From Mastigias papua (taxonomy: Eukaryota > Cnidaria > Scyphozoa > Rhizostomeae > Mastigiidae): DNA of 64,000 bases. The position numbers and the translations under genes were made by a program. How positions within the stretch are numbered: the stretch's first letter is position 1; every line of letters begins with the position of its first letter. Below, in pieces: positions 1,269 through 61,442 of this stretch. Under the pieces are notes generated by a model that ran no database searches, was not told where the DNA came from, and saw only the letters and a list, made by a program, of their open reading frames with translations. The stretch is taken from NCBI GenBank assembly GCA_964019165.1, contig OZ025279.1, positions 8,136,617 to 8,200,616 on the forward strand. Reading direction: 5' to 3'.

Positions 1269-5945
<4,677 letters not shown>

Positions 5946-12140: not shown

Positions 12141-12706
12141 CCGTTGAGTGGGAAAAACTACGAGTATTTTGTTTACATCCTACGATTCTCCTGCAAAACA
12201 AGCAACATGATGTCCTCGGAGAACAGCCAGCAGGGAAGCACATGCAAAGTAGGAGTCCTCTCGACAATGATCCAGAGCGTGGAGTAAACAGGAAAATATG
12301 AAGTTTCGAAAATATATCAACTTTTACATCACCATTAACGAGGGTATCCCTTGGCATAACAGGAAGCAACAATTTTCAAAATCGGACAATCCAGTGATGA
12401 GAAATGGAATTTTGAAGTTTGTCAAAATCTCAAGTAGTTGGTTACATTAGAGTTTCCGGTACAACGTACCGTTTTGAGACAACTTTAAGAATCATAAATC
12501 AGCCCATAAACGAGCGATTTTCATGATTTGTGCACCAAATAGTAAGCAATCAAGGTGTGTTTAACATTAGTAAAATATTGTTAAGTTGAGTGTAGGATCA
12601 TGGGCTGGTAGGCACTGTTTTGATGCTTACGTTTTGCAGCAAAGTTTGCAAGAAGTCTCTACTTAATGGTAAAAACAAACTTCTAGGTAATTCTAGGTGT
12701 TAGGTA
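12140..12706. other. Left flank of the Tc1-like array
   Basis: No feature recognised. It ends with the TA (12705-12706) that forms the outer left target site of the array. Confidence 0.4.
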
Positions 12707-12983
12707 CAATCAATGCCAAAAGTCTTGGAACACTTACTGTATTTTTTGATCTGGCTGGTGAGCGTTCCCCTCTCCCCTTGAAAACAATGTTGATTTATAC
12801 AGGTTTTATACACAGTAAGTAAGTCAAATTGCATTCACACAACTGTCAGCTAACCCAACCGTTAATTCAACATTGTTCTGGGGGGTAGGGGGGGCGTAAT
12901 CCGTTGTGCTTCACCGGAATCTCATAATTGTCACAGAAAATGCTGCGGTCAAAGGGTGTTCCAAGGACTTTTGGCAGTGATTG
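12707..12983. repeat. Module A, copy 1 (277-bp inverted-repeat unit)
   Basis: Left end CAATCAATGCCAAAAGTC, right end GACTTTTGGCAGTGATTG, near-perfect inverted repeats of about 27 bp. No coding potential. It resembles free-standing MITEs of 242-280 bp at 33307, 42380 and 51783. This copy has TA on its outer side and TC on its inner side. Confidence 0.9.
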
Positions 12984-13602
12984 TCTGAGACAGATACTGC
13001 CCATGCAATAGTATGACAATAAAACATATATGTATCATAGGGTTTTCCATGGTCCTGATTTCAATGGAAATATTTCCAAATCGATATCTCTATTGGTTTT
13101 GGCAGGAGCCATGGTGGGGTACGTGAAATGGTAGCATTTTCACTGTGAGAGAAAAACTATAAATGTTGTAACAGAACATCACGTTCTATGTCAAATTTTC
13201 TGGTATGGATTGAAGAGTAGGTTGTATGCTATAAAAACAGAACACTGCTACTGGAATGCCATTCAGTGCACTTCGCTGCACCAAAAACGAACTACAGCAA
13301 AGACGTCGAATCTTCGAGCGATACACCACTTTTTGCCCCTGCAGAAGCACCCATCTCTTTCGTAAAAGCCTCTGTTATACAAGATTGTGACATTGAAACG
13401 ATGCAGGTACGATGGGGCTTCTTCTATTTCAAATAGTAGTCCCAGCAACAGGAGCAGAAAATGCCTCCCCATGCGGTCATTGTTTCACAAAGATGTTGTT
13501 GCAATAGTGGGCATAGGCACGTCACTTTTGTAAACACTATTGTTCCTCCGTAGCGTTGACAAGCTACGGTGTCATTGTAATGGTAGCGAAAGTGCAATTT
13601 GG

Positions 13603-13996
13603 CCACGGTTTACCATTTCTATTTTCCCTTCTATCCTTTACTGGTAGTAGGTACCCAAGAACGGACAATGCTAAAAGTGGTACATCGATATGTACCTTCA
13701 TGAGATGACGCGAAAATACATGTCTATTACTCGTACCTTAGTGAAATCTGGGAAATAGCCACGGTTTACCATTTTACGCAGATAAACATGAATAGGATCA
13801 AAGTCAGATTTCAAAAAATGGTAAACCGTGCAGTTTTTCTCGTTTTTCTCAGAAAATCTAGAGCAGATTTATTCACAAATATAGACAGCTGTAGTTTGTG
13901 TTCATGTACCACTTTTTCCAAACTTGCAGCAATATCGAAGAATTCATTCGTATTTTATAAGGAAAACTAGAATGGTAAACCGTGATGGTAAACCGT
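13603..13996. promoter_or_regulatory. Cluster of a 12-13-bp motif in both orientations
   Basis: CCACGGTTTACCATTT occurs at 13603 and 13759. Its reverse form ATGGTAAACCGTG or a close variant occurs at about 13818, 13972 and 13985. Five copies within 394 bp, two forward then three inverted, lie on the 3' side of the transposase gene. The same cluster repeats 3,192 and 6,384 bp further on. Clustered sites of this kind can be transposase-binding sites or folding signals; which applies here is unknown. Confidence 0.5.
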
Positions 13997-14333
13997 TGGA
14001 ATATACCATTGGAGACGGAATCCAATTCAATGCGACTTTGGGCTGAATTGAGTTTAATGCTTTATAGGTATAGGGCCGCAGTTTTTTTAAGCAAAAGTGT
14101 GGCATTGGGTCGTTTAAGGCCATATTAGAGGAAAATTTTTCACTTATCTACATAATTCCATCGTCTCCTTATACAAGTCAAAGGGCGACTGGTATTCATT
14201 GAGGACACCTTGTTGAGGACACCTTGGGAGACCATAGACAAGGGAAAATTCGCTGTAATACTGCATAATTCATATGGTTTAAATACTAATGAACAAGCTG
14301 TAAGATATAATATTGCAAGTAATTTGAATGAAT

Positions 14334-15413
14334 TCAGTATTTAGTTCTATATCCACCAGACTTTACAATTCTCTGTAGACGAAGGGTCATTGTCTCTACA
14401 GTGCGGTCAATAATAGATGCATCATACTGGAGAAGTGTACTCAAGACCCTTTGTTTAAATGATTCAAAGTCCTCCCTGATAATTTTTCGCTTCAATGCAT
14501 CCTCCCTAAGACTACGCTTAATATTATGAAAAATATTTTCTATGGGATTTAGGTCTGGTGATCTAGCTGGTATTTCTACAAGTTCAGCACCAATTTCCTG
14601 CAAGGCATCTTTCGCTACCATACTTCTTTGGCTTGGGTCATTATCCATAACAAGCAGTAATTTCTCCTTGCGTTTTAGCACTGCACAATCCATTAAGACC
14701 TTTTGTAGAGTTCCTTGCACAAATTTGGCAAACCAAGGTCCGTTCATCTTCTCATATTCTTCAGCAAGAACCACTCCTGTTGAATGTGAGATGCCCACCA
14801 AAAGATGCAACGAACGTCCCCCTGGTAAATTTTTCGATCCTTTGCTCGTATATTTCAGCCCTTCATTGCTTTTCCTCCAGACTTTTCCACCAGCACATAA
14901 CGCATCTTCATATGGCTTTTGATTGTGCCTAAAAGAGACACCGTCCAAATACAGAAGAACCTCGTCTGTCCAAAAGTGTGTGTTATAGTTTTTCAGAGCT
15001 GTTTTTGCATACCGCACTCTGCGTTGCCTGTCATCTGATGAAAGTATACCTTTTCTTCTGGATCTCAAAAAATGATACCCAGCATCATTTAATGTACGTA
15101 CAAGAGTTCTGTAGCTGATGCTTGTGATTTCACACTCTTTTGCGACGTCAACGATTCTGACGTTCGGGTTCTCATCTCTCATTTTGCGGAAAGTTCGAAT
15201 AAATCTGCCCTTGACTTTCTTCGTCATCAATGTTGGTCGACCCGTTCTCTTCTTCGTACTTTGGCTAGAAAAGCCCTCCCGACATATCCTCACAGCACTT
15301 GATGGTGAGATACTACAGCGTCGAGCAATCTCCCTGTACGACAAGGAGGACTCTCGTCGAAGGTAGCAGATATACGCTCTGGCTTTGGCACTAATTCTTA
15401 CGTGAAATACCAT
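14334..15413 (-). CDS. Tc1-like DD34E transposase, unit 1
   Basis: 359 aa, intact from ATG to TGA. The N-terminal half is a paired-type helix-turn-helix region (SLSYREIARRCSIS near 23-36, then RTGRPTLMTKK with a GRP linker near 56-66). The catalytic core follows: D150 in WTDE, D257 in MDNDP, E292 in SPDLNPIEN, with 34 residues between the last two, hence DD34E. VWRKSNEGL near 178-186 matches the Tc1 VWRKP box. The DNDP motif is followed by SQRS where most Tc1 proteins have KHTS. Expected activity is cut-and-paste transposition into TA. Nothing visible disables it. Family assignment is strong; activity is inferred only from the open frame and triad. Confidence 0.93.
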   Translation of the reverse strand: MVFHVRISAKARAYICYLRRESSLSYREIARRCSISPSSAVRICREGFSSQSTKKRTGRPTLMTKKVKGRFIRTFRKMRDENPNVRIVDVAKECEITSISYRTLVRTLNDAGYHFLRSRRKGILSSDDRQRRVRYAKTALKNYNTHFWTDEVLLYLDGVSFRHNQKPYEDALCAGGKVWRKSNEGLKYTSKGSKNLPGGRSLHLLVGISHSTGVVLAEEYEKMNGPWFAKFVQGTLQKVLMDCAVLKRKEKLLLVMDNDPSQRSMVAKDALQEIGAELVEIPARSPDLNPIENIFHNIKRSLREDALKRKIIREDFESFKQRVLSTLLQYDASIIDRTVETMTLRLQRIVKSGGYRTKY

Positions 15414-15898
15414 TTTGTCTCAGTTATTCTGATGCGTGGCGTAGATGAGTATTAGATATATGACACCTTTCCTTAGATTCCCCTTTTTACCACTTAGACT
15501 TTTCCATTCGCCATATTGCACGGACAGGAAATTAGTGGGTTTGAATAGAAACTGTATGCCATATGAGTAAAATTTGTCATGTATTGAAGAGTTTCCTGCT
15601 GCCAGTATGTGTTTACTACGTATTAATCACTTGTTTTTATTGCACGAGTGTTCGATACTGACAAGAACGGGGACAAAGAAAGACAATTATTTGTGACTAA
15701 GAGACAACTGCGACTATAAGAATAATACACCTAAATTAGCAACTCATGAGGTAGAACTCTATGAACCCCTTTAATTCTACACCTTCCCCCCAATATATGT
15801 AATTTTAGATGGCACCATTGAACTCAGCACTATGGAAAACCCCCACCCCCCACCAACTATTTCCTGTACACCTCAACGTTTTACAGATTTTCCTCAGA

Positions 15899-16175
15899 CA
15901 ATCAATGCCAAAAGTCTTGGAACACTTACTGTATTTTTTGATCTGGCTGGTGAGCGTTCCCCTCTCCCCTTGAAAACAATGTTGATTTATACAGGTTTTA
16001 TACACAGTAAGTAAGTCAAATTGCATTCACACAACTGTCAGCTAACCCAACCGTTAATTCAACATTGTTCTGGGGGGTAGGGGGGGCGTAATCCGTTGTG
16101 CTTCACCGGAATCTCATAATTGTCACAGAAAATGCTGCGGTCAAAGGGTGTTCCAAGGACTTTTGGCAGTGATTG
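15899..16175. repeat. Module A, copy 2
   Basis: Same 277-bp module as at 12707. Both sides are internal: GA precedes and TC follows, so the inverted symmetry runs outward beyond the module (CTCAGA|CAATC and GATTG|TCTGAG) and there is no TA duplication here. Confidence 0.9.
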
Positions 16176-17525
16176 TCTGAGACAGATACTGCCCATGCAA
16201 TAGTATGACAATAAAACATATATGTATCATAGGGTTTTCCATGGTCCTGATTTCAATGGAAATATTTCCAAATCGATATCTCTATTGGTTTTGGCAGGAG
16301 CCATGGTGGGGTACGTGAAATGGTAGCATTTTCACTGTGAGAGAAAAACTATAAATGTTGTAACAGAACATCACGTTCTATGTCAAATTTTCTGGTATGG
16401 ATTGAAGAGTAGGTTGTATGCTATAAAAACAGAACACTGCTACTGGAATGCCATTCAGTGCACTTCGCTGCACCAAAAACGAACTACAGCAAAGACGTCG
16501 AATCTTCGAGCGATACACCACTTTTTGCCCCTGCAGAAGCACCCATCTCTTTCGTAAAAGCCTCTGTTATACAAGATTGTGACATTGAAACGATGCAGGT
16601 ACGATGGGGCTTCTTCTATTTCAAATAGTAGTCCCAGCAACAGGAGCAGAAAATGCCTCCCCATGCGGTCATTGTTTCACAAAGATGTTGTTGCAATAGT
16701 GGGCATAGGCACGTCACTTTTGTAAACACTATTGTTCCTCCGTAGCGTTGACAAGCTACGGTGTCATTGTAATGGTAGCGAAAGTGCAATTTGGCCACGG
16801 TTTACCATTTCTATTTTCCCTTCTATCCTTTACTGGTAGTAGGTACCCAAGAACGGACAATGCTAAAAGTGGTACATCGATATGTACCTTCATGAGATGA
16901 CGCGAAAATACATGTCTATTACTCGTACCTTAGTGAAATCTGGGAAATAGCCACGGTTTACCATTTTACGCAGATAAACATGAATAGGATCAAAGTCAGA
17001 TTTCAAAAAATGGTAAACCGTGCAGTTTTTCTCGTTTTTCTCAGAAAATCTAGAGCAGATTTATTCACAAATATAGACAGCTGTAGTTTGTGTTCATGTA
17101 CCACTTTTTCCAAACTTGCAGCAATATCGAAGAATTCATTCGTATTTTATAAGGAAAACTAGAATGGTAAACCGTGATGGTAAACCGTTGGAATATACCA
17201 TTGGAGACGGAATCCAATTCAATGCGACTTTGGGCTGAATTGAGTTTAATGCTTTATAGGTATAGGGCCGCAGTTTTTTTAAGCAAAAGTGTGGCATTGG
17301 GTCGTTTAAGGCCATATTAGAGGAAAATTTTTCACTTATCTACATAATTCCATCGTCTCCTTATACAAGTCAAAGGGCGACTGGTATTCATTGAGGACAC
17401 CTTGTTGAGGACACCTTGGGAGACCATAGACAAGGGAAAATTCGCTGTAATACTGCATAATTCATATGGTTTAAATACTAATGAACAAGCTGTAAGATAT
17501 AATATTGCAAGTAATTTGAATGAAT

Positions 17526-18605
17526 TCAGTATTTAGTTCTATATCCACCAGACTTTACAATTCTCTGTAGACGAAGGGTCATTGTCTCTACAGTGCGGTC
17601 AATAATAGATGCATCATACTGGAGAAGTGTACTCAAGACCCTTTGTTTAAATGATTCAAAGTCCTCCCTGATAATTTTTCGCTTCAATGCATCCTCCCTA
17701 AGACTACGCTTAATATTATGAAAAATATTTTCTATGGGATTTAGGTCTGGTGATCTAGCTGGTATTTCTACAAGTTCAGCACCAATTTCCTGCAAGGCAT
17801 CTTTCGCTACCATACTTCTTTGGCTTGGGTCATTATCCATAACAAGCAGTAATTTCTCCTTGCGTTTTAGCACTGCACAATCCATTAAGACCTTTTGTAG
17901 AGTTCCTTGCACAAATTTGGCAAACCAAGGTCCGTTCATCTTCTCATATTCTTCAGCAAGAACCACTCCTGTTGAATGTGAGATGCCCACCAAAAGATGC
18001 AACGAACGTCCCCCTGGTAAATTTTTCGATCCTTTGCTCGTATATTTCAGCCCTTCATTGCTTTTCCTCCAGACTTTTCCACCAGCACATAACGCATCTT
18101 CATATGGCTTTTGATTGTGCCTAAAAGAGACACCGTCCAAATACAGAAGAACCTCGTCTGTCCAAAAGTGTGTGTTATAGTTTTTCAGAGCTGTTTTTGC
18201 ATACCGCACTCTGCGTTGCCTGTCATCTGATGAAAGTATACCTTTTCTTCTGGATCTCAAAAAATGATACCCAGCATCATTTAATGTACGTACAAGAGTT
18301 CTGTAGCTGATGCTTGTGATTTCACACTCTTTTGCGACGTCAACGATTCTGACGTTCGGGTTCTCATCTCTCATTTTGCGGAAAGTTCGAATAAATCTGC
18401 CCTTGACTTTCTTCGTCATCAATGTTGGTCGACCCGTTCTCTTCTTCGTACTTTGGCTAGAAAAGCCCTCCCGACATATCCTCACAGCACTTGATGGTGA
18501 GATACTACAGCGTCGAGCAATCTCCCTGTACGACAAGGAGGACTCTCGTCGAAGGTAGCAGATATACGCTCTGGCTTTGGCACTAATTCTTACGTGAAAT
18601 ACCAT
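17526..18605 (-). CDS. Tc1-like DD34E transposase, unit 2
   Basis: Predicted protein identical to that of unit 1 (359 aa, triad D150, D257, E292). It lies exactly 3,192 bp downstream. The absence of any amino-acid difference indicates very recent copying or a repeated assembly segment. Confidence 0.93.
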   Translation of the reverse strand: MVFHVRISAKARAYICYLRRESSLSYREIARRCSISPSSAVRICREGFSSQSTKKRTGRPTLMTKKVKGRFIRTFRKMRDENPNVRIVDVAKECEITSISYRTLVRTLNDAGYHFLRSRRKGILSSDDRQRRVRYAKTALKNYNTHFWTDEVLLYLDGVSFRHNQKPYEDALCAGGKVWRKSNEGLKYTSKGSKNLPGGRSLHLLVGISHSTGVVLAEEYEKMNGPWFAKFVQGTLQKVLMDCAVLKRKEKLLLVMDNDPSQRSMVAKDALQEIGAELVEIPARSPDLNPIENIFHNIKRSLREDALKRKIIREDFESFKQRVLSTLLQYDASIIDRTVETMTLRLQRIVKSGGYRTKY

Positions 18606-19090
18606 TTTGTCTCAGTTATTCTGATGCGTGGCGTAGATGAGTATTAGATATATGACACCTTTCCTTAGATTCCCCTTTTTACCACTTAGACTTTTCCATT
18701 CGCCATATTGCACGGACAGGAAATTAGTGGGTTTGAATAGAAACTGTATGCCATATGAGTAAAATTTGTCATGTATTGAAGAGTTTCCTGCTGCCAGTAT
18801 GTGTTTACTACGTATTAATCACTTGTTTTTATTGCACGAGTGTTCGATACTGACAAGAACGGGGACAAAGAAAGACAATTATTTGTGACTAAGAGACAAC
18901 TGCGACTATAAGAATAATACACCTAAATTAGCAACTCATGAGGTAGAACTCTATGAACCCCTTTAATTCTACACCTTCCCCCCAATATATGTAATTTTAG
19001 ATGGCACCATTGAACTCAGCACTATGGAAAACCCCCACCCCCCACCAACTATTTCCTGTACACCTCAACGTTTTACAGATTTTCCTCAGA

Positions 19091-19367
19091 CAATCAATGC
19101 CAAAAGTCTTGGAACACTTACTGTATTTTTTGATCTGGCTGGTGAGCGTTCCCCTCTCCCCTTGAAAACAATGTTGATTTATACAGGTTTTATACACAGT
19201 AAGTAAGTCAAATTGCATTCACACAACTGTCAGCTAACCCAACCGTTAATTCAACATTGTTCTGGGGGGTAGGGGGGGCGTAATCCGTTGTGCTTCACCG
19301 GAATCTCATAATTGTCACAGAAAATGCTGCGGTCAAAGGGTGTTCCAAGGACTTTTGGCAGTGATTG
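19091..19367. repeat. Module A, copy 3
   Basis: Same module as at 15899, with GA before and TC after. It separates B units 2 and 3. Confidence 0.9.
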
Positions 19368-20717
19368 TCTGAGACAGATACTGCCCATGCAATAGTATGA
19401 CAATAAAACATATATGTATCATAGGGTTTTCCATGGTCCTGATTTCAATGGAAATATTTCCAAATCGATATCTCTATTGGTTTTGGCAGGAGCCATGGTG
19501 GGGTACGTGAAATGGTAGCATTTTCACTGTGAGAGAAAAACTATAAATGTTGTAACAGAACATCACGTTCTATGTCAAATTTTCTGGTATGGATTGAAGA
19601 GTAGGTTGTATGCTATAAAAACAGAACACTGCTACTGGAATGCCATTCAGTGCACTTCGCTGCACCAAAAACGAACTACAGCAAAGACGTCGAATCTTCG
19701 AGCGATACACCACTTTTTGCCCCTGCAGAAGCACCCATCTCTTTCGTAAAAGCCTCTGTTATACAAGATTGTGACATTGAAACGATGCAGGTACGATGGG
19801 GCTTCTTCTATTTCAAATAGTAGTCCCAGCAACAGGAGCAGAAAATGCCTCCCCATGCGGTCATTGTTTCACAAAGATGTTGTTGCAATAGTGGGCATAG
19901 GCACGTCACTTTTGTAAACACTATTGTTCCTCCGTAGCGTTGACAAGCTACGGTGTCATTGTAATGGTAGCGAAAGTGCAATTTGGCCACGGTTTACCAT
20001 TTCTATTTTCCCTTCTATCCTTTACTGGTAGTAGGTACCCAAGAACGGACAATGCTAAAAGTGGTACATCGATATGTACCTTCATGAGATGACGCGAAAA
20101 TACATGTCTATTACTCGTACCTTAGTGAAATCTGGGAAATAGCCACGGTTTACCATTTTACGCAGATAAACATGAATAGGATCAAAGTCAGATTTCAAAA
20201 AATGGTAAACCGTGCAGTTTTTCTCGTTTTTCTCAGAAAATCTAGAGCAGATTTATTCACAAATATAGACAGCTGTAGTTTGTGTTCATGTACCACTTTT
20301 TCCAAACTTGCAGCAATATCGAAGAATTCATTCGTATTTTATAAGGAAAACTAGAATGGTAAACCGTGATGGTAAACCGTTGGAATATACCATTGGAGAC
20401 GGAATCCAATTCAATGCGACTTTGGGCTGAATTGAGTTTAATGCTTTATAGGTATAGGGCCGCAGTTTTTTTAAGCAAAAGTGTGGCATTGGGTCGTTTA
20501 AGGCCATATTAGAGGAAAATTTTTCACTTATCTACATAATTCCATCGTCTCCTTATACAAGTCAAAGGGCGACTGGTATTCATTGAGGACACCTTGTTGA
20601 GGACACCTTGGGAGACCATAGACAAGGGAAAATTCGCTGTAATACTGCATAATTCATATGGTTTAAATACTAATGAACAAGCTGTAAGATATAATATTGC
20701 AAGTAATTTGAATGAAT

Positions 20718-21797
20718 TCAGTATTTAGTTCTATATCCACCAGACTTTACAATTCTCTGTAGACGAAGGGTCATTGTCTCTACAGTGCGGTCAATAATAG
20801 ATGCATCATACTGGAGAAGTGTACTCAAGACCCTTTGTTTAAATGATTCAAAGTCCTCCCTGATAATTTTTCGCTTCAATGCATCCTCCCTAAGACTACG
20901 CTTAATATTATGAAAAATATTTTCTATGGGATTTAGGTCTGGTGATCTAGCTGGTATTTCTACAAGTTCAGCACCAATTTCCTGCAAGGCATCTTTCGCT
21001 ACCATACTTCTTTGGCTTGGGTCATTATCCATAACAAGCAGTAATTTCTCCTTGCGTTTTAGCACTGCACAATCCATTAAGACCTTTTGTAGAGTTCCTT
21101 GCACAAATTTGGCAAACCAAGGTCCGTTCATCTTCTCATATTCTTCAGCAAGAACCACTCCTGTTGAATGTGAGATGCCCACCAAAAGATGCAACGAACG
21201 TCCCCCTGGTAAATTTTTCGATCCTTTGCTCGTATATTTCAGCCCTTCATTGCTTTTCCTCCAGACTTTTCCACCAGCACATAACGCATCTTCATATGGC
21301 TTTTGATTGTGCCTAAAAGAGACACCGTCCAAATACAGAAGAACCTCGTCTGTCCAAAAGTGTGTGTTATAGTTTTTCAGAGCTGTTTTTGCATACCGCA
21401 CTCTGCGTTGCCTGTCATCTGATGAAAGTATACCTTTTCTTCTGGATCTCAAAAAATGATACCCAGCATCATTTAATGTACGTACAAGAGTTCTGTAGCT
21501 GATGCTTGTGATTTCACACTCTTTTGCGACGTCAACGATTCTGACGTTCGGGTTCTCATCTCTCATTTTGCGGAAAGTTCGAATAAATCTGCCCTTGACT
21601 TTCTTCGTCATCAATGTTGGTCGACCCGTTCTCTTCTTCGTACTTTGGCTAGAAAAGCCCTCCCGACATATCCTCACAGCACTTGATGGTGAGATACTAC
21701 AGCGTCGAGCAATCTCCCTGTACGACAAGGAGGACTCTCGTCGAAGGTAGCAGATATACGCTCTGGCTTTGGCACTAATTCTTACGTGAAATACCAT
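20718..21797 (-). CDS. Tc1-like DD34E transposase, unit 3
   Basis: Third identical 359-aa transposase, 3,192 bp after unit 2, with the same triad and helix-turn-helix region. The small ORFs around each transposase repeat at the same spacing and have no family resemblance. Confidence 0.93.
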   Translation of the reverse strand: MVFHVRISAKARAYICYLRRESSLSYREIARRCSISPSSAVRICREGFSSQSTKKRTGRPTLMTKKVKGRFIRTFRKMRDENPNVRIVDVAKECEITSISYRTLVRTLNDAGYHFLRSRRKGILSSDDRQRRVRYAKTALKNYNTHFWTDEVLLYLDGVSFRHNQKPYEDALCAGGKVWRKSNEGLKYTSKGSKNLPGGRSLHLLVGISHSTGVVLAEEYEKMNGPWFAKFVQGTLQKVLMDCAVLKRKEKLLLVMDNDPSQRSMVAKDALQEIGAELVEIPARSPDLNPIENIFHNIKRSLREDALKRKIIREDFESFKQRVLSTLLQYDASIIDRTVETMTLRLQRIVKSGGYRTKY

Positions 21798-22282
21798 TTT
21801 GTCTCAGTTATTCTGATGCGTGGCGTAGATGAGTATTAGATATATGACACCTTTCCTTAGATTCCCCTTTTTACCACTTAGACTTTTCCATTCGCCATAT
21901 TGCACGGACAGGAAATTAGTGGGTTTGAATAGAAACTGTATGCCATATGAGTAAAATTTGTCATGTATTGAAGAGTTTCCTGCTGCCAGTATGTGTTTAC
22001 TACGTATTAATCACTTGTTTTTATTGCACGAGTGTTCGATACTGACAAGAACGGGGACAAAGAAAGACAATTATTTGTGACTAAGAGACAACTGCGACTA
22101 TAAGAATAATACACCTAAATTAGCAACTCATGAGGTAGAACTCTATGAACCCCTTTAATTCTACACCTTCCCCCCAATATATGTAATTTTAGATGGCACC
22201 ATTGAACTCAGCACTATGGAAAACCCCCACCCCCCACCAACTATTTCCTGTACACCTCAACGTTTTACAGATTTTCCTCAGA

Positions 22283-22559
22283 CAATCAATGCCAAAAGTC
22301 TTGGAACACTTACTGTATTTTTTGATCTGGCTGGTGAGCGTTCCCCTCTCCCCTTGAAAACAATGTTGATTTATACAGGTTTTATACACAGTAAGTAAGT
22401 CAAATTGCATTCACACAACTGTCAGCTAACCCAACCGTTAATTCAACATTGTTCTGGGGGGTAGGGGGGGCGTAATCCGTTGTGCTTCACCGGAATCTCA
22501 TAATTGTCACAGAAAATGCTGCGGTCAAAGGGTGTTCCAAGGACTTTTGGCAGTGATTG
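22283..22559. repeat. Module A, copy 4 (array end)
   Basis: Last 277-bp module. Its right end GATTG is followed by TA at 22560-22561 and then unrelated DNA, which marks the right border of the array. Confidence 0.9.
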
Positions 22560-22974
22560 TACATTATGTAAAAAATACTAGAAGAGGCATTTCTGCCAAA
22601 AGGCTCGTTTCAAATCGTTCTAGTTTCTTTGTAAAACAATTTCAAAGATTGCATGTGACATCGGTCATTCTTGCCTGATTTCCTTGTAACACTTCAACAA
22701 TGCCTTGACGCTTTCCTATGGGAAAGGAGTTCTGCATTTATGAAATTGTTTCTTAAGAAACTAAGTGAGGTGTTTTCAATGCAATGATGAAAACACTTCA
22801 AATGCCAAAAACAGCTCAACTGCGATGTTCTTTAGGTTGGAAATGAATTTGTTTTGGAGTTTTAAAGTTTCCTTGGAGACCATTTTAGTATGCAACCAAA
22901 GTTGTCAACTTCTTCAACTTTCAATCTGAGCTGGTTGAAAAAAGCTTTAATTAGAACCTTATATGTGTTGAGCC
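22560..22974. other. Spacer between array and RAG1-like pseudogene
   Basis: No ORF or repeat recognised. It could hold the decayed 5' part of the RAG1-like element, but no CAC-type terminal repeat was identified. Confidence 0.35.
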
Positions 22975-25060
22975 ATGTCGTTTGAAATACCAAATGGTGA
23001 TCTCTTTGATTTTATTATTACAAATGGAGATTTGAGCAACAAGAGTATTAAAGTAGGAGAAACGTTTAAGAGATTGGCAGAACTGCTAAAAGCGGTAATG
23101 GTGGTAAAATAGGCATATTTAAACTTCAAGCTATTCTATGGTCAGTTTACAACATTCGTAACAATGATGAAGAATGACGGCAAATGAAGAAATCTTTTGA
23201 ATGTGATGACCATTTGAAGCGTAACCGAGCCCCCTCCTGCAGTCAGCCTGTTCTACCACCAAAATACGATAGGAAAAGTGCGATATTAGCCGATACTCTA
23301 TGTCAGGAAGTGCAAAGCAAAATTTGAAAGAGCGGTCTCTGTAATGTTGCTTCATTTGCTCAAGAGCATGGCATTGAGAAGGAAGTTGTGCTCCAAAAGC
23401 TTGTCGAAGGAGCTATCCGCTCCCATGAATGCGACATGTCGTTATTTCTGGAAAATCTGAGGGGCCACTGCGAAATCCCAATCACTGAGCTGACATCTCT
23501 TATCTCTGTAGCTAATATTTCTCAAAGGCAGTATCAAATGTGCCGGACTTTGCTGCTGAAATATAATCTCACTGCTTTTGAACCACTATACAAGATGGAC
23601 GCGTACATGAAGTCTTTGTACCCAACAGTTGCTATAGATCACCTTTCAGCTTCTGTAAATGTACAAGGCCTTTCCGATTCCACTCTGCATGCAATCCTGT
23701 CTAATGAAGATCTCTTTCACAAGTTGTCAGATCTTCCAGTCGATTCCTTTCTGACATTGTCTGCTAAAGTTGAACTTGATGGTTAAGGATCACATTTGAA
23801 GTGGCACCAGCTATCTGGTGAAGTTGACGACGAAAATTCATTTGCAACTTCAGATAGCTGCTTGGGTATCTTTATGACTCCACTTGGCATCCATGTCTCT
23901 GGATTAAACGACATTATTCTTAAGGAAAATCCGTTCTCAAACCTTGTTTTTTACGCACGACCAATGAAGCTTGTAAAAGCTAAAGAGTGTAGAGCATTTG
24001 TCGGCTCATTTTCCCCTAGATTGCAATCGTGTCTTGATGCTATCAGGTGTCCGCATAAAGTTCAAAGTGTTACGTTCAAAGTTGTCATCAACAGCAAAAT
24101 ATCGATGATGGATGGCAAAATGGTGGGAATTTTGCATGGTGACTCAGGGTCATTCTGCCACTATTGTGATGTTTCAAAGAACGAGGCATCAAGTTTAGAT
24201 TTATAGTTGACGCAGAAGTTGGAGGATTGCCGATATCAAAGACCATTGAGCAATGCTAGGAATGTTGGGAGCGGAAAGATAGCTGGAAAGTCAGCTACAG
24301 TGATCCTCAACGTAAGGGAAAATGTCACACACCCCTCATTTCACTATCAGGTCGTCGCTTTGCTATTCTCCACCAAGAGTTGCGATCTTTAACTTTGTGC
24401 TGAACATCCTATATCACTTGATGTGTGGCGTAAAATGTGGAGTGAGGCAAGCCCATCTGTAAAGGCCAAAGTTAGCAAGGCTAATGCTGAAGCAATCAAG
24501 CGCATAAAGCTTTCTTGTGGAGGCCTCTTAGTAGATATTCCAATGACATAGGGTGGCACAAGCAACACTGGTCCAGTCGCTAGGCGCTTTTTTCACCCAA
24601 GCAATGGAGAAGTAATCTGTAATCTGATTCCAGATCGAGATGATAGGGATAATTTTGCTATTCTTTTAGGCCAGTTTAATGTTTGCCTCGCCATACCTGA
24701 AAGTGTCGACAAAAGCAAAATTGTTGACGTCAAGTGTTTCAAGCAGCATTGCCATGATATCACCATCCATATCTGTATCCATTTTCCTTGGGTCCAAATT
24801 ATCCCATCTGTTCATCAAATGTTAGCCCATAACTGGGAGCTCTATGAGATCCTTGAGGGTGGGCCAATTGCAGTTTGGTCCGAAATCGGCTTGGAGGCCT
24901 GGAGCAAGCATATTGGGAACTTTTTTAAGTGGAGCTGGGCGTAGGGCCAGGCAAGCTTCAGTTCAATCTTATCTTGAAGACATTTTTGTGCTCATATTGA
25001 TAATATCATCGCCAATTGTGACAAAATCCTGGCAAGACATATTTAACACAAATCATGAGT
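22975..25060 (+). pseudogene. RAG1-like / Transib-superfamily transposase, broken
   Basis: Read across stops and shifts, the + strand gives a protein aligned end to end with the RAG1/Transib core. The longest continuous frame runs from 23184 to about 24260, with stops at 23325, 23784 and 24204. Frame changes follow near 24260, 24395 and 24945, with another stop near 24549. Family landmarks remain: first catalytic Asp in KVELDG (codon 23778), second in SMMDGKM (24111), catalytic Glu in SEIGLEAWSK (24894), the zinc cysteines CHYCDVSKNEAS (about 24156), the GG-TSNTG-ARRFF block (about 24553) and the HQMLAH pair (about 24813). Known family: Transib transposases and RAG1, which cut next to CAC-type ends. 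No RAG2-like kelch gene and no terminal repeats were seen. It is a dead copy, but of moderate age since so much is legible. Confidence 0.8.
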
Positions 25061-26080
25061 CCGCTTTACCACACGTTGATGCAGCAGACGGTAGTCTGGC
25101 GATTTATTCGATGTACCTCCACTGAACTAAAGAATCCAGTTTTGAGACTCTTACAGTGCGTCTACTTAGTTATTGATACGAGATCAAACGAATTCAACAT
25201 AGCATATCAAAGTAATAAGCATATCTCAGTTGGTTGGACATTGCAGAACTGCTGTTTTTACTGAAGGTATATTGTTTCACTAAGCTATTGTTTCATGAAA
25301 AAAGGCTATTACTTTCATAATTGCATCGAGAATGCCCCTCTTGGTTTCTTTAGAAATCAATGTTATAAATGCATGGCTCGTCCCTGGTAGGAAAGAGTCA
25401 AGGTATTGTTACAGTGTTGCAAGGAAATCAAACAAGGAGCATAGTTTTGAGTGTGGGGCAGGGGATAAGTTTCAAATCCATAAGGAAATATTCAAAAATT
25501 GTGGTAGAGGGGGAGTAGGGGGTCAAGGGCAAAGCCCCTTGATAAAATTTTAGAACTGCGCCCTATAAGTCAGTAGGAAGCACCCTATTTACATATAGAT
25601 ATGCATCCTGTCTAGGTAGAAAACGGCAGGTACAATCATTGAAATGTTTGTGTGAAAAATTAATATACCTCTTTGCTACTTTGTAAAAATCGTTCCCAGA
25701 TCACGTAGACTGATAGAGATACACGTCATCAGATCAAAGGAACATGTCAAGCGCTAGGTGACCAAGAACATAGACCCTTTCATGACCTTATAGGTTTACA
25801 AGACTTTTGAAAGAGTCTATAATAGCATGTTTTGAAAAACTTGAGGTATTTACCTCCAATATGCCCTGATGACTCCGCCACTGGTACTTCTTGAAGGTGA
25901 GTGAACTTTAACACGGAAAAAGGGTATCTACTTTCTATTTGAATTGAATGCTTCAATCTTTTTCTGAGATCAGTGGTTACCCGGTATCAGAATCTAAATC
26001 TCCTTTACCCGTATAAGTAACATTTTCCCCTACACGAAACTTACTTCTCTATATTTTCGTTCTCTTGTATAAAGTACTGC
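25060..26080. other. Intergenic DNA, nothing firm
   Basis: Short open frames without family resemblance. The phrase around 25500-25560 (G-rich, then GGGCAAAGCCCCTTG) looks like repeat debris. Confidence 0.35.
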
Positions 26081-27270: not shown

Positions 27271-28487
27271 CATAATATAGTAAGATGTGCTATCATTCCA
27301 TGATTCCAAGCCATGGCAGCCATATGTTATTTTGATGTAGACTTATGACTTGATCTGAGATTTTACTTTTCCTTTGCCTGTAGGTAGGAAATTTTTCAGG
27401 AATACTGTTCGTGAAATCAATTTTCCAATTTGCTAAAGGACTACTGTTAGAGGTGGAAAGTTAGGATAGATAGAATCAGAAAAGTATTGAAGATTCAGCC
27501 ATACTAAACCTGTTATGTTTTGAGAAAAGCACCTTTTCAGGTTTATCTTTTGCACACAGTAAACAAGCACTCTGGCCAAAGTCATTGATCCATCAGTGAT
27601 CTAGACTTTGTCATGTACCATTTGGATCACTTTTATTCATAGACTAGTGCCTTTGCAAGCAAGGCTTATCTCATGTCCTTTTCTTTTACCTTACTGAGCA
27701 TCAATGCATTAGTAGTACATATATCTACTTTTTCTTATAACTTTCATTCATTTTAATTGGCATAGCACCTGTTCAAAGCAGAGGACAGCCAGATGCCTCA
27801 ATTTCAAATGCAATTGGGAGTAGTAAAGCAACTCTTCACATGAGAATCAATCGACCAGCAACTGTTGAAGAAGAGGTACTGATATCTGCTCATTATCCAA
27901 ATTCTGTATGAGTTAAGAGCTGCTTGTTTTTATATTATCTGACAATTAAGTCTGTTTTATTAGCTTAGATAATTTTCAATTGAAGTAGATGATGGGAAGC
28001 GCAGCTTCTGAATGAATTTGAAAATAAGTACAATGACATAAAGAGACACCATTAGTTCTATTTCGACAATTCCATATTATTCACAATTCATATTGTTTGA
28101 CCATTCCATATTACACTACCATTCCATATTAGCTGACAGTCCTAGTTATCACATATATGAAACATTTCAACCCAATCTTGGGCCATCATCAGTCAAAATG
28201 AAAGATCAGGAAACCATATAAATAGGGGTAAGGTGATCCCATATAAAATAAAAACATGCTGAACTGGACATATGTAAGGGTAAGTAAATAACCAAAAGGA
28301 AAGAAAGAAAACTGGCCAGAAAGCACCAAAGAGAGAGGCATGGGAATAGAAGATAATAAAAGATAATTTTCATATTTCAATTTACTTTTGTTTTAGATAA
28401 GAAAATTTTCAACCTGGTTAACCTAATTTACCTGATTATAGCAGAATTTTATTTTTGTAGGAGAATATACATCAGACAAACCAGACT

Positions 28488-28562
28488 ATATAGTCAATCA
28501 ATCAAATCAATCAATCAATTAATCAATCAATTGATTGATCAATCTATCAATTGATTGATCAT
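28488..28562. repeat. (AATC)n microsatellite in intron 3 of partial GIPC
   Basis: Imperfect ATCA/TTGATTGATC repeats just before the exon 4 acceptor, the counterpart of 4909-4994. Confidence 0.9.
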
Positions 28563-30000
28563 TATCAAGCCTTATTTTTTAGTTTATGGTCTTCTTATTT
28601 CCTAGCAACCACAATGGGAAGCAAAAGCAATTAAGAAAGTGGATGACTTACTTGAGGGCTTTCTTGGAATTCGAGATGTGGACCTTGGTAAGCACTTGTA
28701 CTGACCCATTGTTTGACTTTCAATGCTATTATTGAAGATAATGGTTTAGGGTAAAATTTTCATAGTATTTTATTGGCAGAAATTGGGCTTATTTTAAGGG
28801 AGTATCATTCTAACTAATACAGTATAAGCATGCCAGACTGTTTAACAGAGACAACCACCCATGTGCACCTCCATGCATTCCTTGATCACCAGAGGTGGAC
28901 AATGTATCACCCACCTTGTTGATTATTTCTTAAAGACAGCATCCATCTTGGTTTTTGATTCTGGTGATTTGCTATCTACTATCTGAATAGTCTATTGGTA
29001 CTTAGAGCCTCAGAATGACTAGAAGAGTGGGAACATTCTCTAGGCATACTAGGAAGCTTTTTTCATCCAACACTTGTCAGAGTATGAAATGTCTGATAAC
29101 GACTGAAAGGTGAACCAAAATATACAGATGCAGATAGATTTTATCTTAGTTCAACGTATGAGTGTTTTCTTTCCACAAATACTTCAAGGCATTTCCAAAC
29201 CAGTTTTATTTTGTTGTAAAGGGCATGGTAGGTGTGAAGCTGAGATGAATAGAAGTAAACAAAGGAGATGGCAAGATTATGTGACGTAGTGTTGTTTGTT
29301 TGTGTTGACTTGGATGTGTGAATGTATGGCTGGCCAGATTTGCGGAAATTGAACGTAGATGAATGGTGAGAAGGAAGAATGTTAAGATAAAATATGGCCT
29401 AAGCTGCAGTGTTTATGTTCACTACAATACGCGTAAACAACGGATCAACGAAGGAATCAGATTCTCTTCTAATATCAAGGGATTAGTATATTGGTCAGCA
29501 ACCACAGCTTTGCGATACTTCTCAGAACCCAAATAATGAAAGCTGATTTATTTAAAATGATGAATCAATAATACAACTTTGCATGTTGCGCATTTACATA
29601 ATGGCGAGAAAGAGAGTACTCAAGCTTTAATGGACCTTCACTATGAAAACTCTTGGGCGCATTCCAGGACCCACTATCAGTATGGATTTATTTCAGGGGA
29701 AAGATTAGTTTAAATAAGGTAAGTGGGAATGCAAATGAATGAAAGGATTTAGAACTTATTAAAGGTAGTTTGTCCCCTGATAATATGTCATACTCATGAT
29801 GGATCCTGGATTGGTTCTGGAACATTCATGCCAAGAAGTAGATCGTTAATCTGCTAACGGATGTGTCACAATGTTTTCCAAACTAACATCATTCAGTTTG
29901 TAAGATAATATCGAAAATTTTTTCACTTAGCTGAAATCAGCCATATTTTCAGCAGTGCCGGTTTCATACTTAAATCTGATAGGAGCTGAACATGGCAAGC

Positions 30001-30064
30001 GTGGGCGTGATGGGCGTGATGTGCGTGATGGGCGTGATGTGCGTGATGGGCGTGATGGGCGTGG
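30001..30064. repeat. 10-bp minisatellite GGGCGTGATG
   Basis: About six tandem copies with G/T variation in alternate units (GGGCGTGATG, TGCGTGATG). It lies in an insertion in intron 4 of the partial GIPC. Confidence 0.9.
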
Positions 30065-30889
30065 TTAGTGTGGCTTTATGTAATGAAAGTATAGAGCGAA
30101 ACTTTTGATGATCGATCGCATTTATATGCAGCAAATTTTGTCAGCCTTCACCCAGCAATTCACCTCAAGATCTGGGCGGTGCTCAGTACCTGATGTGATG
30201 GTACTGATAGTCTTGTCTAAATTCAAAGTTGAGAATAGCATACCATTAAGAATTTGAAAAAAACCTACAACGTACTTTGTTTGCACCATATAAAGCGGGA
30301 AAGGACACTAAATTGGGTTCCAACTGCTTATGGTGCTTGCTATTCATCAACGTATATCCAACAAGATAAGTAAAGTTCATCTCATATTAGATGTCACGTT
30401 ATTTCAGGAAATAGAAATGTAAAATTTGACAGTTCAAGATCTTTAAATCTAAAACATGGTGTCATTTCGATCTAATGTATTTGCTACTTTAACGAAACAT
30501 ATCGTGACAGTGACGCGAAACATGTCGTGGCAGTCATAATCCTTGGAAGAATGGCCTGTTTTGCTCGTGTACATGCCAACTACAAGACAAACAGTGTTTG
30601 GTGCTGTGGATTTCCTGGGACTACGCATGGAGCCACTGAGGTCATAAGGAAGCAAACAACAACAAAGTGGCGGTCCTTATCCAACACTGAGATGTAATTT
30701 ATGTATACATCCTGCAATATTTTCATTCGTAAAGGGCCCTTCACTGACATTTAAGTAATATAGTACGTATTCAGTTGAGATTACTTCTAGTACAGGGGTA
30801 CAGAGGTACCATTGACAGTCTTTTATTATGGTGTGCATTTAACTGGCTGGAATGCACCGGCAGGCGCATCGGGTTTCCAGTAAGATCAT

Positions 30890-31275
30890 GATTTAGAGAC
30901 AGAAGATATTCCAAGCACCCGTTGCCTATAGAATACTCAATGTGAACGAGGCTCTAAGCTTCCATGAGGACTTTGCTGGCTGCACGTGACTAAAGAAATC
31001 GTTTAGTATCCAATCATTTGTTAGTATCCTGATCACAGAACAATAAATATTCCGAGTCCCCCTCACCAATAGAATACACAGTTAAAGCACTTTATATTTT
31101 TAAAGCCAGGGATCAGAATATTCATTGTTTTGTGATCATGATACTGGCAAACGAATGGACACTGGATTGCTTGCTGCGTGACGTGCAGTCAGTAAATTTC
31201 TCGAGGATGCTTTTAGCACCGGTCAAATTGAGTATTCTATAGACCACGGGCTCAGAATATCCTTTAGCCTATCTC
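30890..31275. repeat. Long imperfect inverted repeat (foldback)
   Basis: Arm 1 (about 30905-31055) and arm 2 (about 31114-31261) are reverse complements with scattered mismatches. Pairs include CTATAGAATACTCAAT with its complement near 31231, and ATCCTGATCACAGAACAAT with its complement near 31115. The loop is about 58 bp. This could be a foldback/MITE or a source of hairpin RNA. It is absent from the matching intron of the complete GIPC gene. Confidence 0.8.
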
Positions 31276-31964
31276 TTGATAGAGGTCCTGAAAAATGATT
31301 AGATACTTGATCCATATTTCGGTCAATGGTAGTCAGCATAATGCACACAGGCGTTCTGTTGACATTTGTTGGTCAAAATTTTACCACTATTGCCGACCCA
31401 AAAGAGCTCCGTTAATTGTAAAGTGTTCTTTCCAGCATCTATGTGTAGGAAGACGTATAAATTGAAAGAATATCATATCCTTAACTTTGATGATCTGACA
31501 GGGGCTCAAGCACCTGTAGTCCCCATCTGAATCCACCCCAGGTCAGAATCAGTCCTATTTTTATGCCATTGAACGCAACATTTAACATTTGTTTAAAAAA
31601 TCCCTTTTAATATGACTATTAATTTCTTTAATGTAAATGTCACTTCTCTCTTAGCGACGAAACTAGTAGATATGTGGAAGCACGAAGAAACTCCAAGTGA
31701 ATTTGCTTCAGTTGTTGAGGAGCATTTTGCTGAATTTGAATTTCCAGATGATTTCATTTTTGACATTTGGGGAATAATTGGGGATGCAAAAGCTGGAAGA
31801 CTTTGATGCCAGTTCCTGCCAAAATGTTGCAAGAGATTATATATGCTAGAAGTAAGCTTCTAATTAAGGTTTTAATGTATGTATGCTGTGAGAATGTCCT
31901 ATGAAGTATGCAGTTTTTTCTATAACATTGTTACCATATATATGAAGAATCAATACAAAATAAG

Positions 31965-31966
<2 letters not shown>

Positions 31967-32047
<81 letters not shown>

Positions 32048-32190
32048 CACATCACATCACATCACATCACGTCACATCACATCACATCACATCACATCAC
32101 ATCACACATTACACATCACACATCACACATCATACGTCACACATCACACATCACACATCACACACACCGCACACACCGCACAAACAACGT
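31967..32190. repeat. Compound (CA)n / (ACATC)n microsatellite
   Basis: About 80 bp of CA passes into ATCAC pentamers and then CATCACA variants. It lies in the 3' flank of the partial GIPC and is absent at the corresponding place in copy 1. Confidence 0.95.
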
Positions 32191-33160
32191 ACACACCATT
32201 GCCCTTAGATGTTAAATACCAGTGCCAGACTCTTCTGCATATGGATGCAGGGTTTAACATACATTTCTTTCGATAGGAGACATTCACGTTTTGTCAGTTT
32301 GACAGTGCAATAGGTTTGTCACAAGGAAATAATATTCCATACACTACCAGAAAGGCATAAAGTATCTTAGTATTCATTGTTACATTGATTGCGTGAGATT
32401 TTTGTATCATTGCACTCTGTTTTTGTCGTTGCTGTTTTATAACTGGTTTTATTGAGTATAGTATCCTATAGGTTGATTAGTTGTTTCTGCCTGCAATTGG
32501 AGTATGGGGTGCTTGGGTTACAATGTAGAAAAGAATCACATGCAACAGCTACTGTAAATGAATCGTCTAGTTCCTGTGATATGAAGTGATGTTTAAAGAG
32601 AGATAATAGGCTCTGTTTTGCACCTAGCTGCAGGGTGCATTCAAGCCTGCAGATAAGAACCAAAATTATTAAGAACCTACAGCCTATGTAGCTTTGATTT
32701 CAATTACTTGGAAAATTTTCAACCTGATGCTCTGAATAGGTTCTAGTTAGTAGTTTCATTCTTTATCCACTGAGAAATACATTTAGCATGTTCCCCAGTC
32801 AACTTCTTCCATGCATTGGATCTACCTCATCAAATATAATCATGCACAGGCTTGTTTTGAAATCATAGATTCTTGTGTACAGGCTTTTTCTGTAACTGTG
32901 AAGATCTTCACTTATTCCCTTACGGAAAAAGTGGTTTGATGCCTTAGGGATTGCCATTGCCTTACTGAAGCAGAAGAAAATTCCCTTTCAACCTTGTAGC
33001 TTTCTCCTTTTTTGTACAGTAATGCTATTAGCTTTAGCTATATTTCCAAAAGAGTAAGACTAAGGAGTGTGGACATATTCTCAAGTGCATCAATTTAGTA
33101 TTGAATCAGTGCATCAAGAATGTATCATTTCCAGGTACGTATATACCGGAGGCTGTGGAG

Positions 33161-33296
33161 GAATGACACCCCGCAATCTTTAACTAGTCGGAAAATCTTA
33201 CGGTAGTCGGAAAAGTAAAGGGTTTTGGGAATGACACCCCGCAATCTTTAACTAGTCGGAAAATCTTACGGTAGTCGGAAAAGTAAAGGGTTTTGG
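33161..33296. repeat. Two tandem 68-bp units
   Basis: Units start at 33161 and 33229 (GAATGACACCCCGCAATC) and look identical. They directly precede the MITE at 33307, inside the block of about 1 kb missing from copy 1. Confidence 0.9.
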
Positions 33297-33306
33297 CAAA
33301 AAGCTG

Positions 33307-33586
33307 CAATGGCCGCCAAAACTCTTGGAACACCATGCTTCTTATCTCTATACGCTATCTCCCCCCCCCCCCCCGTATACAATATTGTAATACGACTAGG
33401 AAATGAAGAAAAATTGAGATCTAAGTTGAGCAAGTGCACCAAACATCCTGGGACATATTCCTCCTTCTTCTCAACATTGTCTCAGGGGGGGGAGGGGCTT
33501 TTTGTGTGAAATACGACAATGAAGCATTTAATATCTATTTCCTGGCAATTCCACGCTACAGTTCCAACTACTTTTAGCGGCCATTG
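33307..33586. mobile_element. MITE of the module-A type
   Basis: Left end CAATGGCCGCCAAAACTC. The right end, reverse complemented, begins CAATGGCCGCTAAAAG. 280 bp, TA on the right (33587-33588) and TG on the left, probably a mutated TA. The CAAT-N-GCCAAAA-TTGGAACAC ends and size match the array modules at 12707. A run of 14 C lies at 33361-33374. Confidence 0.8.
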
Positions 33587-34975
33587 TAGGTCAATCGGAA
33601 AAATGCGAGCCCTTTGTGATATATTTGAGTGTGAGACTAATTATCTTTTGAAACACCAGCGAACGTTCTTTATGCTCAATCTTGCAGATTTGGGACAGGT
33701 ATACACTTTACCATACAGTTGGGAGGAATTCTCAAAACAGAAATTATTTACGAGAAAATTCGCAAGGTTATTAAGGATAGAGTTCTGTTGACGAAATGGG
33801 CGTGACATCCAAGGCGCGTTTTCTGATATTGCAGCCAGCAGTCTTTGATGCACGTCTTATATTACCTGAAACATGCTAGATACCTATTGAGGGTATCTGT
33901 GGCCGTTGCAGCGTGCGCGGACAGGCCTCGTTATTTAGTGACAATCATGAAATTTGCCGATAAAAGTCAAGCTCTCTGGATATAAAGGCAATGACTCCGG
34001 ATAAAAAAGTAAGTTTTTCCTACAAAGAGGCAAGTTTGCCCCACGCTACCCACGACAGGATTGCAAGTTATGTTAGTTAATATTCATTAATGTTCAGGCC
34101 ACATTGCAAAGTGATTGTTGACCCCTTCACCTCCCAAAAATGCATTGTAGTCATATTATGCTGAATGCACGTACGTTTTTGTAAGTATCACTGCCATACC
34201 TATTTGTAATAGTTCTCAATTTGCCATACACACTCAGCTACGAGGTTTATGACATGAGTCGTTATTCGTGGAAACTTAAGAATTGTAATTGTATTGTAAT
34301 GTCGTATGTATTGGTGTACGTAATGATTATTTCCAATTGACCCTGTGAAAATATTTGGTTATATCTTAATCTCATATGTGGATTTTTAGCTTTAATTTTA
34401 TCCGTTAATTGCTTGGGACAGTCATTTAAGCCAATACATGTCGAAACCATATACGTTCATTTGTTTGTATCTCAAGTATAGATGGATAACCCTGCAGTGT
34501 GTATTGATTTGCCACATAATTGTATGTTATTTAACTGCATTGATTTGAAATGGAAACTTTTTAGAACAAACTTACTTCTCTTGATATGTTTTCTTCTGAT
34601 ATGTCTGTAATTGCAGCTCATTCCGACTCATTCTATCTCATGTAGAAGCCAGTGAAAATTTATTGGGACACATCTGATTTGATTTTGACTCACATTGGAG
34701 CATTATTATAGAAGTGCCATTGCATCGCTATCTTTTTATTTGTTCCAAATACAGAAATACGATTTATGCTTATATCAGGGCAATCATCGTTCTACCTTGA
34801 CCAGATAAGCCTCTGCCCTAGAAAATAAAACCTATATTCTTTCAAATTAAGTCTACAATTGGCAATTTATGGGCCATATGGCGAACTATTACTTGTTTTT
34901 ACATATCGTAGCTAATTTTATGAAATATCTACTCACATGATATACAATGTATCTATGGAAATGATCAGCTTTTCT

Positions 34976-35929: not shown

Positions 35930-48307
<12,378 letters not shown>

Positions 48308-57436: not shown

Positions 57437-57640
57437 AAATATGAAATCATTATAATTATTATTATTATTTTTATTTAATTTTGTTTTTTTTTTGTTCTAT
57501 ACTCGTTAATATTGATGTTATCTACTTTATATATTTTTATGTAATCTATGCTTGTTTAGTATACCTGACAGCCAGTTGTACGTTGCCTAATTTAGTGAGA
57601 CGTATGATTGTAGTATTTAGTTGATATATTTTATAAATTC
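55706..57640 (+). mobile_element. Second R2-type element, 5'-truncated
   Basis: It begins in the middle of the RT domain, at the point matching residue about 474 of the preceding element, right after that element's (ATT)5. Its 3' UTR resembles that of the first copy (compare ACCTGACAGCCAGTTGTA with ATCAGGCTAGCCAATTGTAA). It ends in an A run near 57650. The proteins are clearly diverged, so this is a related subfamily, not a recent copy. Confidence 0.85.
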
Positions 57641-57659
57641 GAAGTTTTAAAAAAAAAAA

Positions 57660-60600: not shown

Positions 60601-61442
60601 TCCCTCACAGTTCTCTTTCAAGTTGTATATTTCATTAAGTTCATTCACGATATCAATTTCTTCCTCTGACGCTTCCTCGACAGAAAAGTTTAATTCAGTT
60701 CTATCATTAGATTCTGCAGTCTCAGTTACATCATCCAAACTTTGGGTGTATTCCGGTGTGATATTGTTCTCTTCCTCGTTATAGTTTACATTACCATTAA
60801 TCCTTCTTTGTATCATTTCTAACTCTAATTCCGTAAGCCAGCCATTTTTTCTAATCGCCCTTGCCTGATCACACACTCGTTGTTCCGAAACATCAAAAAA
60901 TCCACGTTCTTTCCATTCTTTGTACATCCTTTGCCTATATCCTTTAATTGGGACACCATTCTCGTCAAGAGGTTTCGATCTAAAATAGCACTCCATCACC
61001 ACAATATTCACTTCCTTCGACCACTTTTTCCTAGCAGTAGCAGGATGACGACCGGGTCCCCGCTGCTGGACCGGGGAACACCTGCCGGGCGAGGCACCTT
61101 CACATTGAGCTCCAGTGCCATTCACGCCGTTATTTTCAAAATATTGAGAACTCATTTCACTCATAAGAGGATTAGTGAATTTAAGGTTGCACAACCACCA
61201 GTGTTTTTATTGAGACACCATCTCTAGGAAGGTTGTCAACCAAGACTAAAGAGTCCTCCCTACCCATGAGACAGACTAGCCCCCGCCGGACGCCAACCCG
61301 GTACTTCAGGGTCTCGGGGAGAGCTAACAGGTACTACACCTTGCTTAAGGGTGACCTGGAGGTAGTTATGGCAAAGGGCAACCTCATTATCCCACGTCGA
61401 AACTCCATAACCGGTTGCAGTTTTACGTCATACCCAGGACAA
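57660..61442 (-). mobile_element. R4/Dong-like non-LTR retrotransposon
   Basis: Minus-strand element. Its 5' end abuts an (ATT)17 tract at 61443, and its 3' end meets an A run next to the R2-type element. The 5' leader (61195-61442) is visibly richer in GC than the surroundings. Nearly full length, with one frameshift in the ORF. Confidence 0.8.
57768..61194 (-). pseudogene. R4/Dong-like RT with endonuclease, one frameshift
   Basis: Two frames form one protein of about 1,140 aa. Frame 1 (61194 to 58243, 983 aa) has a Myb-like N-terminal region (RKKWSKEVNIVVMECYFRSK, then WKERGFFDVSEQRVCDQAR). After a basic coil (WWKRRIERDIKDLQKSINLL) comes the RT, with NYRPISCLPIMWKLFTGI, WIDYRKAYDMIPHSW, GIFQGDSLSPLLFVI and catalytic FMDD at 657-660. 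A CCHC knuckle (CRLCKERGETVSHIVSEC) follows. The frame shifts near 58260-58275. Frame 2 ends at 57768 with RHDNVAKMIHWRLC and a restriction-like nuclease (RPDIVIIDK, IIVDVAIPGD). The layout and the WWKRR block are those of the R4 clade. One indel separates it from an intact ORF. Confidence 0.85.

Follow-up and report, generated by a model that had tools for sequence, protein, structure and literature searches.

A decayed RAG1/Transib-type transposase gene and its Transib relatives in the same genome

Described RAG1-like and Transib transposons and their relation to the window

Transposons that carry a RAG1L-RAG2L gene pair are described (PMC7204232, PMC9435367) from amphioxus, molluscs, nemerteans and cnidarians, the last including corals as well as the jellyfish Aurelia aurita, and they have CAC ends and 5-bp target duplications. 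Transibs are also already known in cnidarians (PMC9435367, PMC4411706, PMC7204232, PMC8355894). Tao et al. (2022, PMC9435367) divide the Transibs into Subgroup I, marked by the α11-α12 region and a CTT1 tail, and Subgroup II, marked by CTT2, and state that the ends are asymmetric in every Subgroup I Transib; in PMC8355894, 12/23-asymmetric Transibs are named from Drosophila and Anopheles.

The window, by which we mean the whole 64,000-nucleotide stretch that was analysed, holds a broken transposase gene of this kind, which we regard with high confidence as belonging to a defunct copy of a Transib DNA transposon with a single gene. Because Transibs are known in cnidarians, the fossil is a new member of a known group, one further family in a superfamily that these animals were known to carry. 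Its weight comes from its company, namely near-identical Transibs with CACAGTG ends and mostly 5-bp duplications, one family of which has a 12/22 spacing.

With the Transib HzTransib (PDB 6pqn and related entries) the family shares the RAG1-type core, the D-D-E triad, the zinc ligands and a GTTNDGNTARRFF-like block. The CAC ends and 5-bp target duplications of Transibs are seen in its sister families A and B of the same genome, a CAC end also in one copy of the family itself (L035). Unlike HzTransib, the window family apparently has long inverted arms (∼0.68 kb), its protein has ∼710 residues compared with 497 in the HzTransib chain, and it falls in a different, well-supported sub-branch. The transposase core is also homologous to that of the RAG1L-RAG2L transposons, although the fossil is without a RAG2L gene and lies outside the RAG1/RAG1L clade. 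The catalytic and zinc residues of vertebrate RAG1 align with those of the window gene, and the heptamer CACAGTG of the vertebrate 12/23 recombination signals (RSS) stands at the end of a related copy (L035) and at the ends of families A and B; the window family, however, is a transposon rather than a host recombinase, and its A-runs are near-symmetric (31/30) in contrast to those signals.

The broken gene and its place among the Transibs

A single decayed transposase gene (Table 1) extends slightly past position 25060, at which the sequence-only reading had ended it, and both of its ends align with the start and end of two relatives (P0001 and P0002). Read through with its frames set by the relatives, it gives 718 positions including X marks. 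We count five internal stops (TGA at 23175 and 23325, TAA at 23784, TAG at 24257 and 24549) and five changes of frame (near 23087, 24195, 24389, 24421 and 24921), so that the earlier figures of at least four stops and at least three frameshifts were correct but an undercount. Compared with other genomic copies, the pseudogene differs at 99 of 697, 96 of 695 and 89 of 695 sites at codon positions 1, 2 and 3, respectively (sums over six aligned blocks, leaving out L033, which repeats L031). As the differences are about equal over the three positions, the gene has decayed without coding constraint and was rightly called a fossil; it presumably does nothing now.

Table 1. Positions of the gene, its motifs and the surrounding element in the window
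Feature	Position	Strand	Remarks
Outer left inverted arm	12263..12705	+	84-87% identity to L017, L031/L033; matches inverted right arm of L035
Nested Tc1/mariner-type insertion, not Transib	12706..22560	.	TA at both borders; absent from L017 copy
Inner left inverted arm	22561..22792	+	Matches right arm of L035
Transib transposase pseudogene	22975..25125	+	Full-length relatives 708 and 714 aa; 5 stops, 5 frame changes
First catalytic Asp codon (KVELDG)	23778..23780	+	Aligned with HzTransib KWGFDG
Second catalytic Asp codon (SMMDGKM)	24111..24113	+	Aligned with HzTransib TMIDGK, RAG1 GYDEK
CxxC zinc ligands (FCHYCD)	24153..24170	+	Aligned with RAG1 ICTLCD
GGTSNTGPVARRFF block	24552..24593	+	Aligned with HzTransib GTTNDGNTARRFF
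HxxxxH zinc ligands (HQMLAH)	24813..24830	+	Aligned with RAG1 HKTLAH
Catalytic Glu codon (GLEA)	24894..24896	+	Aligned with RAG1 GNESGNK, HzTransib ASEARNK
Surviving inner right inverted arm	25313..25441	+	L035 continues as inverted left arm to CACAGTG

The motifs on which the sequence-only reading had based its assignment are all in place. KVELDG, SMMDGKM and SEIGLEA are present and align at the three acidic residues with HzTransib and RAG1, with the second Glu of SEIGLEA, not the first, opposite the catalytic Glu. The zinc ligands FCHYC and HQMLAH come into register with RAG1 in a family profile built from the read-through and eleven relatives, as do the acidic residues of vertebrate RAG1, which we take to be numbered D600, D708 and E962, their places counted on the family-profile alignment. 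The GGTSNTG block is also present, within the block that aligns with HzTransib.

Sequence comparisons place the gene with the Transibs. The read-through matches HzTransib (6pqn) at E = 5.3e-14, amphioxus RAG1L follows at 0.066 and no vertebrate RAG1 is listed up to E = 10; the profile comparison that had been proposed bears out the Transib kinship, HzTransib scoring best (112.6 bits) ahead of amphioxus RAG1L (41.6) and the best vertebrate RAG1 (38.2). Single pieces of the gene carry little of this signal: 24552-24941 alone finds HzTransib at only E = 0.0024, and 23787-24203 alone has no match among PDB sequences. Far beyond what chance would give, the gene matches eleven database proteins at 41-53% identity, with E values between 1.8e-209 and 8.1e-124; two of these proteins, of 708 and 714 aa, are full length. 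A profile search for relatives listed ten proteins, nine of them new, including P0013, which is presumably from Aurelia, as labelled; no relatives of the fossil transposase were found in IMG/VR or GTDB contigs.

Alternatively, the motifs might match by chance and the core belong to an unrelated transposase superfamily (Tc1/mariner, hAT or CMC/Chapaev), a reading that we find hardly credible. A Tc1/mariner-type element does sit inside the fossil, and a pair of inner ends (CACTG...), rejected below, looked Chapaev-like; the match to HzTransib, however, runs over the catalytic core, and the fossil, scanned as six pieces and as the read-through, matched no Pfam family. That the Pfam RAG1 model, too, is silent on the read-through tells against the Transib reading, although this model passes its cut-off in two of the ten relatives scanned (P0004 and P0006). 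A Foldseek search with the predicted structure of an intact relative (P0002) supports the RAG/Transib kinship: all 49 matches at E ≤ 0.001 are RAG1, RAG1L or HzTransib, and Hermes, at E = 1.2e-3, is the first to follow from outside RAG/Transib. The AlphaFold model behind this search is poor (mean pLDDT 60, pTM 0.37), and the Foldseek TM-scores are ∼0.3. A better match to an unrelated transposase superfamily, which would have told against the sequence-only reading, was not seen in these searches.

Placing the gene among the Transibs leaves the question of which side of the RAG1/Transib divide it stands on. In a tree of 18 rows, RAG1 and RAG1L form a separate clade with support of 100/100 and without any Transib row, and the window gene falls in a seven-row clade with P0001, P0002, P0003, P0004, P0006 and P0011 (100/99), which adjoins P0016 and family A. 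Removal of the long-branched P0020 (17 rows) leaves this placement unchanged, and the clade test rejects a grouping of the window gene with RAG1/RAG1L (p-AU 0.00103). Both trees have few references, and since the RAG1 rows fill no more than 35 and 39% of columns, the trees give only a rough idea of how deep the split lies. The alignment-based evidence therefore supports the view that the window gene belongs among the Transibs and not in the RAG1/RAG1L lineage, so that of the label "RAG1-like/Transib" the second half is supported and the first, taken in the strict sense, is not. Proteins of the window clade end without a CxxC...H knuckle, which is present in families A and B, L022, L028 and P0016; in families A and B, the proteins that reach the C terminus carry it as CxxC...GH..R.

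It is very unlikely that the fossil is instead a RAG1L-RAG2L (ProtoRAG-type) transposon that has lost RAG2L by decay. Such pairs are reported from A. aurita (PMC7204232), and both RAG1L and RAG1 are picked up by the family profile. No match came from searching the genome with RAG2_PHD, but this says nothing about the absence of RAG2, because the control was also matched in 0 of 14 genomes. This reading is nevertheless opposed by the fully supported RAG1 plus RAG1L clade that excludes the window and by families A and B, which belong to the same Transib clan and have one long ORF per element, the next longest being 108 aa in the family A element (L011) and 87 aa in that of family B (L024). The fossil likewise has no second long ORF, and no RAG2L gene was seen there. 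The sequence-only reading was thus right that a RAG2-like partner is missing from the fossil, but in a Transib this is normal and expected and carries no special message.

Young Transib families and the spacing of their ends

The genome that holds the dead Transib copy also has younger relatives, some with full-length frames, for which the sequence-only reading suggested looking. A protein search found 34 Transib-like places including the window, of which six lie in open reading frames 704-749 codons long; the locus sequences were examined for 20 of the 33 places other than the window. Family A comprises five loci (L011 and L013-L016) that are 96-99% identical over 3.9 kb, and family B five full loci (L023-L027) that are 97-99% identical over 4.0 kb, with two partial ones (L020, at ∼95%, and L021). 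Some copies in these families have full-length frames. Two family A loci on two contigs, L014 and L015, share ∼9.95 kb at 97.6% identity including the same Transib insertion and so represent a duplicated locus.

The termini of both families are CACAGTG, with an end base changed or lost in some copies. A 5-bp target duplication flanks all four distinct insertions of family A, in two cases when read across an end base that is changed or missing; in family B it is exact in three of five cases, holds at four of five bases in one and is missing in one. A scan of nine loci for CAC ends with 5-bp duplications recovered family B (L024) and, as weak candidates, ends in L028 (score 16, the best of 20 shuffles being 15) and L019 (score 17, the best of 20 shuffles being 16); it returned nothing in the other six, among them L011 of family A, where CA is gone from one end.

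The heptamer consensus of the RSS is CACAGTG, and by the nonamer consensus the vertebrate 12/23 signals would give an A-run at 22 and 33. Measured as the first run of at least four A after the heptamer, the A-runs lie at 22/32 in family A, 21/32 in L019, 29/30 in family B and 31/30 in the window family, so that the 12/22 spacing of family A resembles that of the V(D)J 12/23 signals. Shuffled ends come within 1 bp of each of 22/33 in 67 of 20,000 cases for family A and in 31 of 20,000 for L019, by a criterion that was chosen after seeing the sequences and that two of the four families meet; the L019 ends are themselves only weakly called, and one reads CACACTG. We tentatively raise the possibility that a recently mobile, probably cnidarian Transib lineage related to the fossil's family (family A, possibly L019) carries CACAGTG and A-rich nonamer-like blocks at 12/22 bp as a 12/23-like pair without RAG2. 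Should such a pairing rule be genuine, the Transib transposase itself would have had the 12/23 arrangement from early on, already in a non-bilaterian, and a natural element would allow a direct test of it. Elements of this kind could serve to find out whether antibody recombination owes its 12/23 rule to the transposon and not to RAG2.

The element around the gene and its surroundings

The window copy spans about 12263 to 25441 and is much larger than the sequence-only reading had reported. The L017 copy shows the fossil going left to 12268, past a 9.85-kb insertion that L017 lacks; the left-arm matches to L017 and to L031/L033 run from 12268 and 12318 on, respectively, and the left terminus in the window reads GACAATG, a worn CACAGTG. 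The insertion is made up of three head-to-tail units of 3192 bp, 100% identical, and a 279-bp end piece. Each unit has an intact-looking ORF for a 361-aa Tc1/mariner-type transposase, with DDE_3 in the one unit scanned, and the identity of the units reflects either a very recent amplification or an effect of assembly.

On either side of the gene, 22670-22792 and 25313-25436 match each other in inverted orientation (77% over 124 nt). The left arm has no match in window 25442-64000, the rest of the right arm and the right terminus having been lost. Both can be followed in L035, the right arm of which matches the left arm of the window at 84.7% over 248 columns and 79.8% over 435 columns and ends in an exact CACAGTG. 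Between the matching segments L035 has ∼195 bp extra. The window family thus appears to have had inverted arms of ∼0.68 kb ending in CACAGTG, the right end being taken from one copy, L035. The CAC ends that the sequence-only reading had looked to are therefore found in this family copy and in sister families A and B but not in the window copy, its left end being worn and its right end lost, so that this copy offers no target duplication to read.

We also considered as termini the CACTT/CACTG at 22690 and 25416, which belong to the 124-nt inverted repeat, and rejected them: the flanks are also inverted, no 5-bp duplication fits, L017 runs past the left CAC and the likely terminus in L035 lies farther out. 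Chapaev/CMC elements make target duplications of 4 or 3 bp.

A DNA search of the assembly (347 Mb, 172 contigs) gave at least four loci of the window family, counts of this kind being lower bounds: the window, C4 (L017, internally deleted), C11 at ∼7.855-7.880 Mb (scattered) and C11 at ∼7.591 Mb (L035, a right end). These few copies would suit a host gene derived from RAG1/Transib that was domesticated and later died, rather than a transposon copy. We consider this even less probable than the loss of RAG2L discussed above, because all four loci are broken or partial, with no full-length copy among them, and each has part of an inverted arm, and because differences between the copies compared are spread about equally over the three codon positions.

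As a Transib transposon, the living element would probably have been ∼4 kb long, with two ∼0.68-kb inverted arms ending in CACAGTG around one gene, which probably encoded a transposase of ∼710 aa with a RAG1/Transib core. By analogy with HzTransib and RAG, this protein would have bound the element ends, nicked at CAC and made hairpins on the flanking DNA, and the element would have been cut out and inserted at 5-bp staggered target sites. A later Tc1/mariner-type insertion split the window copy, which also lost its right terminus.

The fossil is located between two regions of a GIPC (PDZ protein) gene, at 1269-5942 and 27759-31803, its last exons and downstream DNA being repeated as a diverged second copy; at the DNA level, 3968-8563 and 27589-34879 have matches of 73-79% identity. 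The joined GIPC exons are closest to a protein labelled Seg2074.5 GoldUCD (68%), presumably an Aurelia gene model, and the host is probably a cnidarian near that jellyfish. An Rfam search of the window gave no gathering-level match. Farther right are exons of an Rh/ammonium transporter (PF00909) at 42998-43967 and three long LINE-type frames of 1079, 410 and 987 aa at 52299-61206, two with RVT_1 and all three with a zf-RVT match. A 17-bp tandem unit (GCTTCTATTCAAGGGCG) runs at three nearby places in 6304-6759, and long TA dinucleotide arrays occupy 1712-1893, 4453-4867 and 43547-43760.
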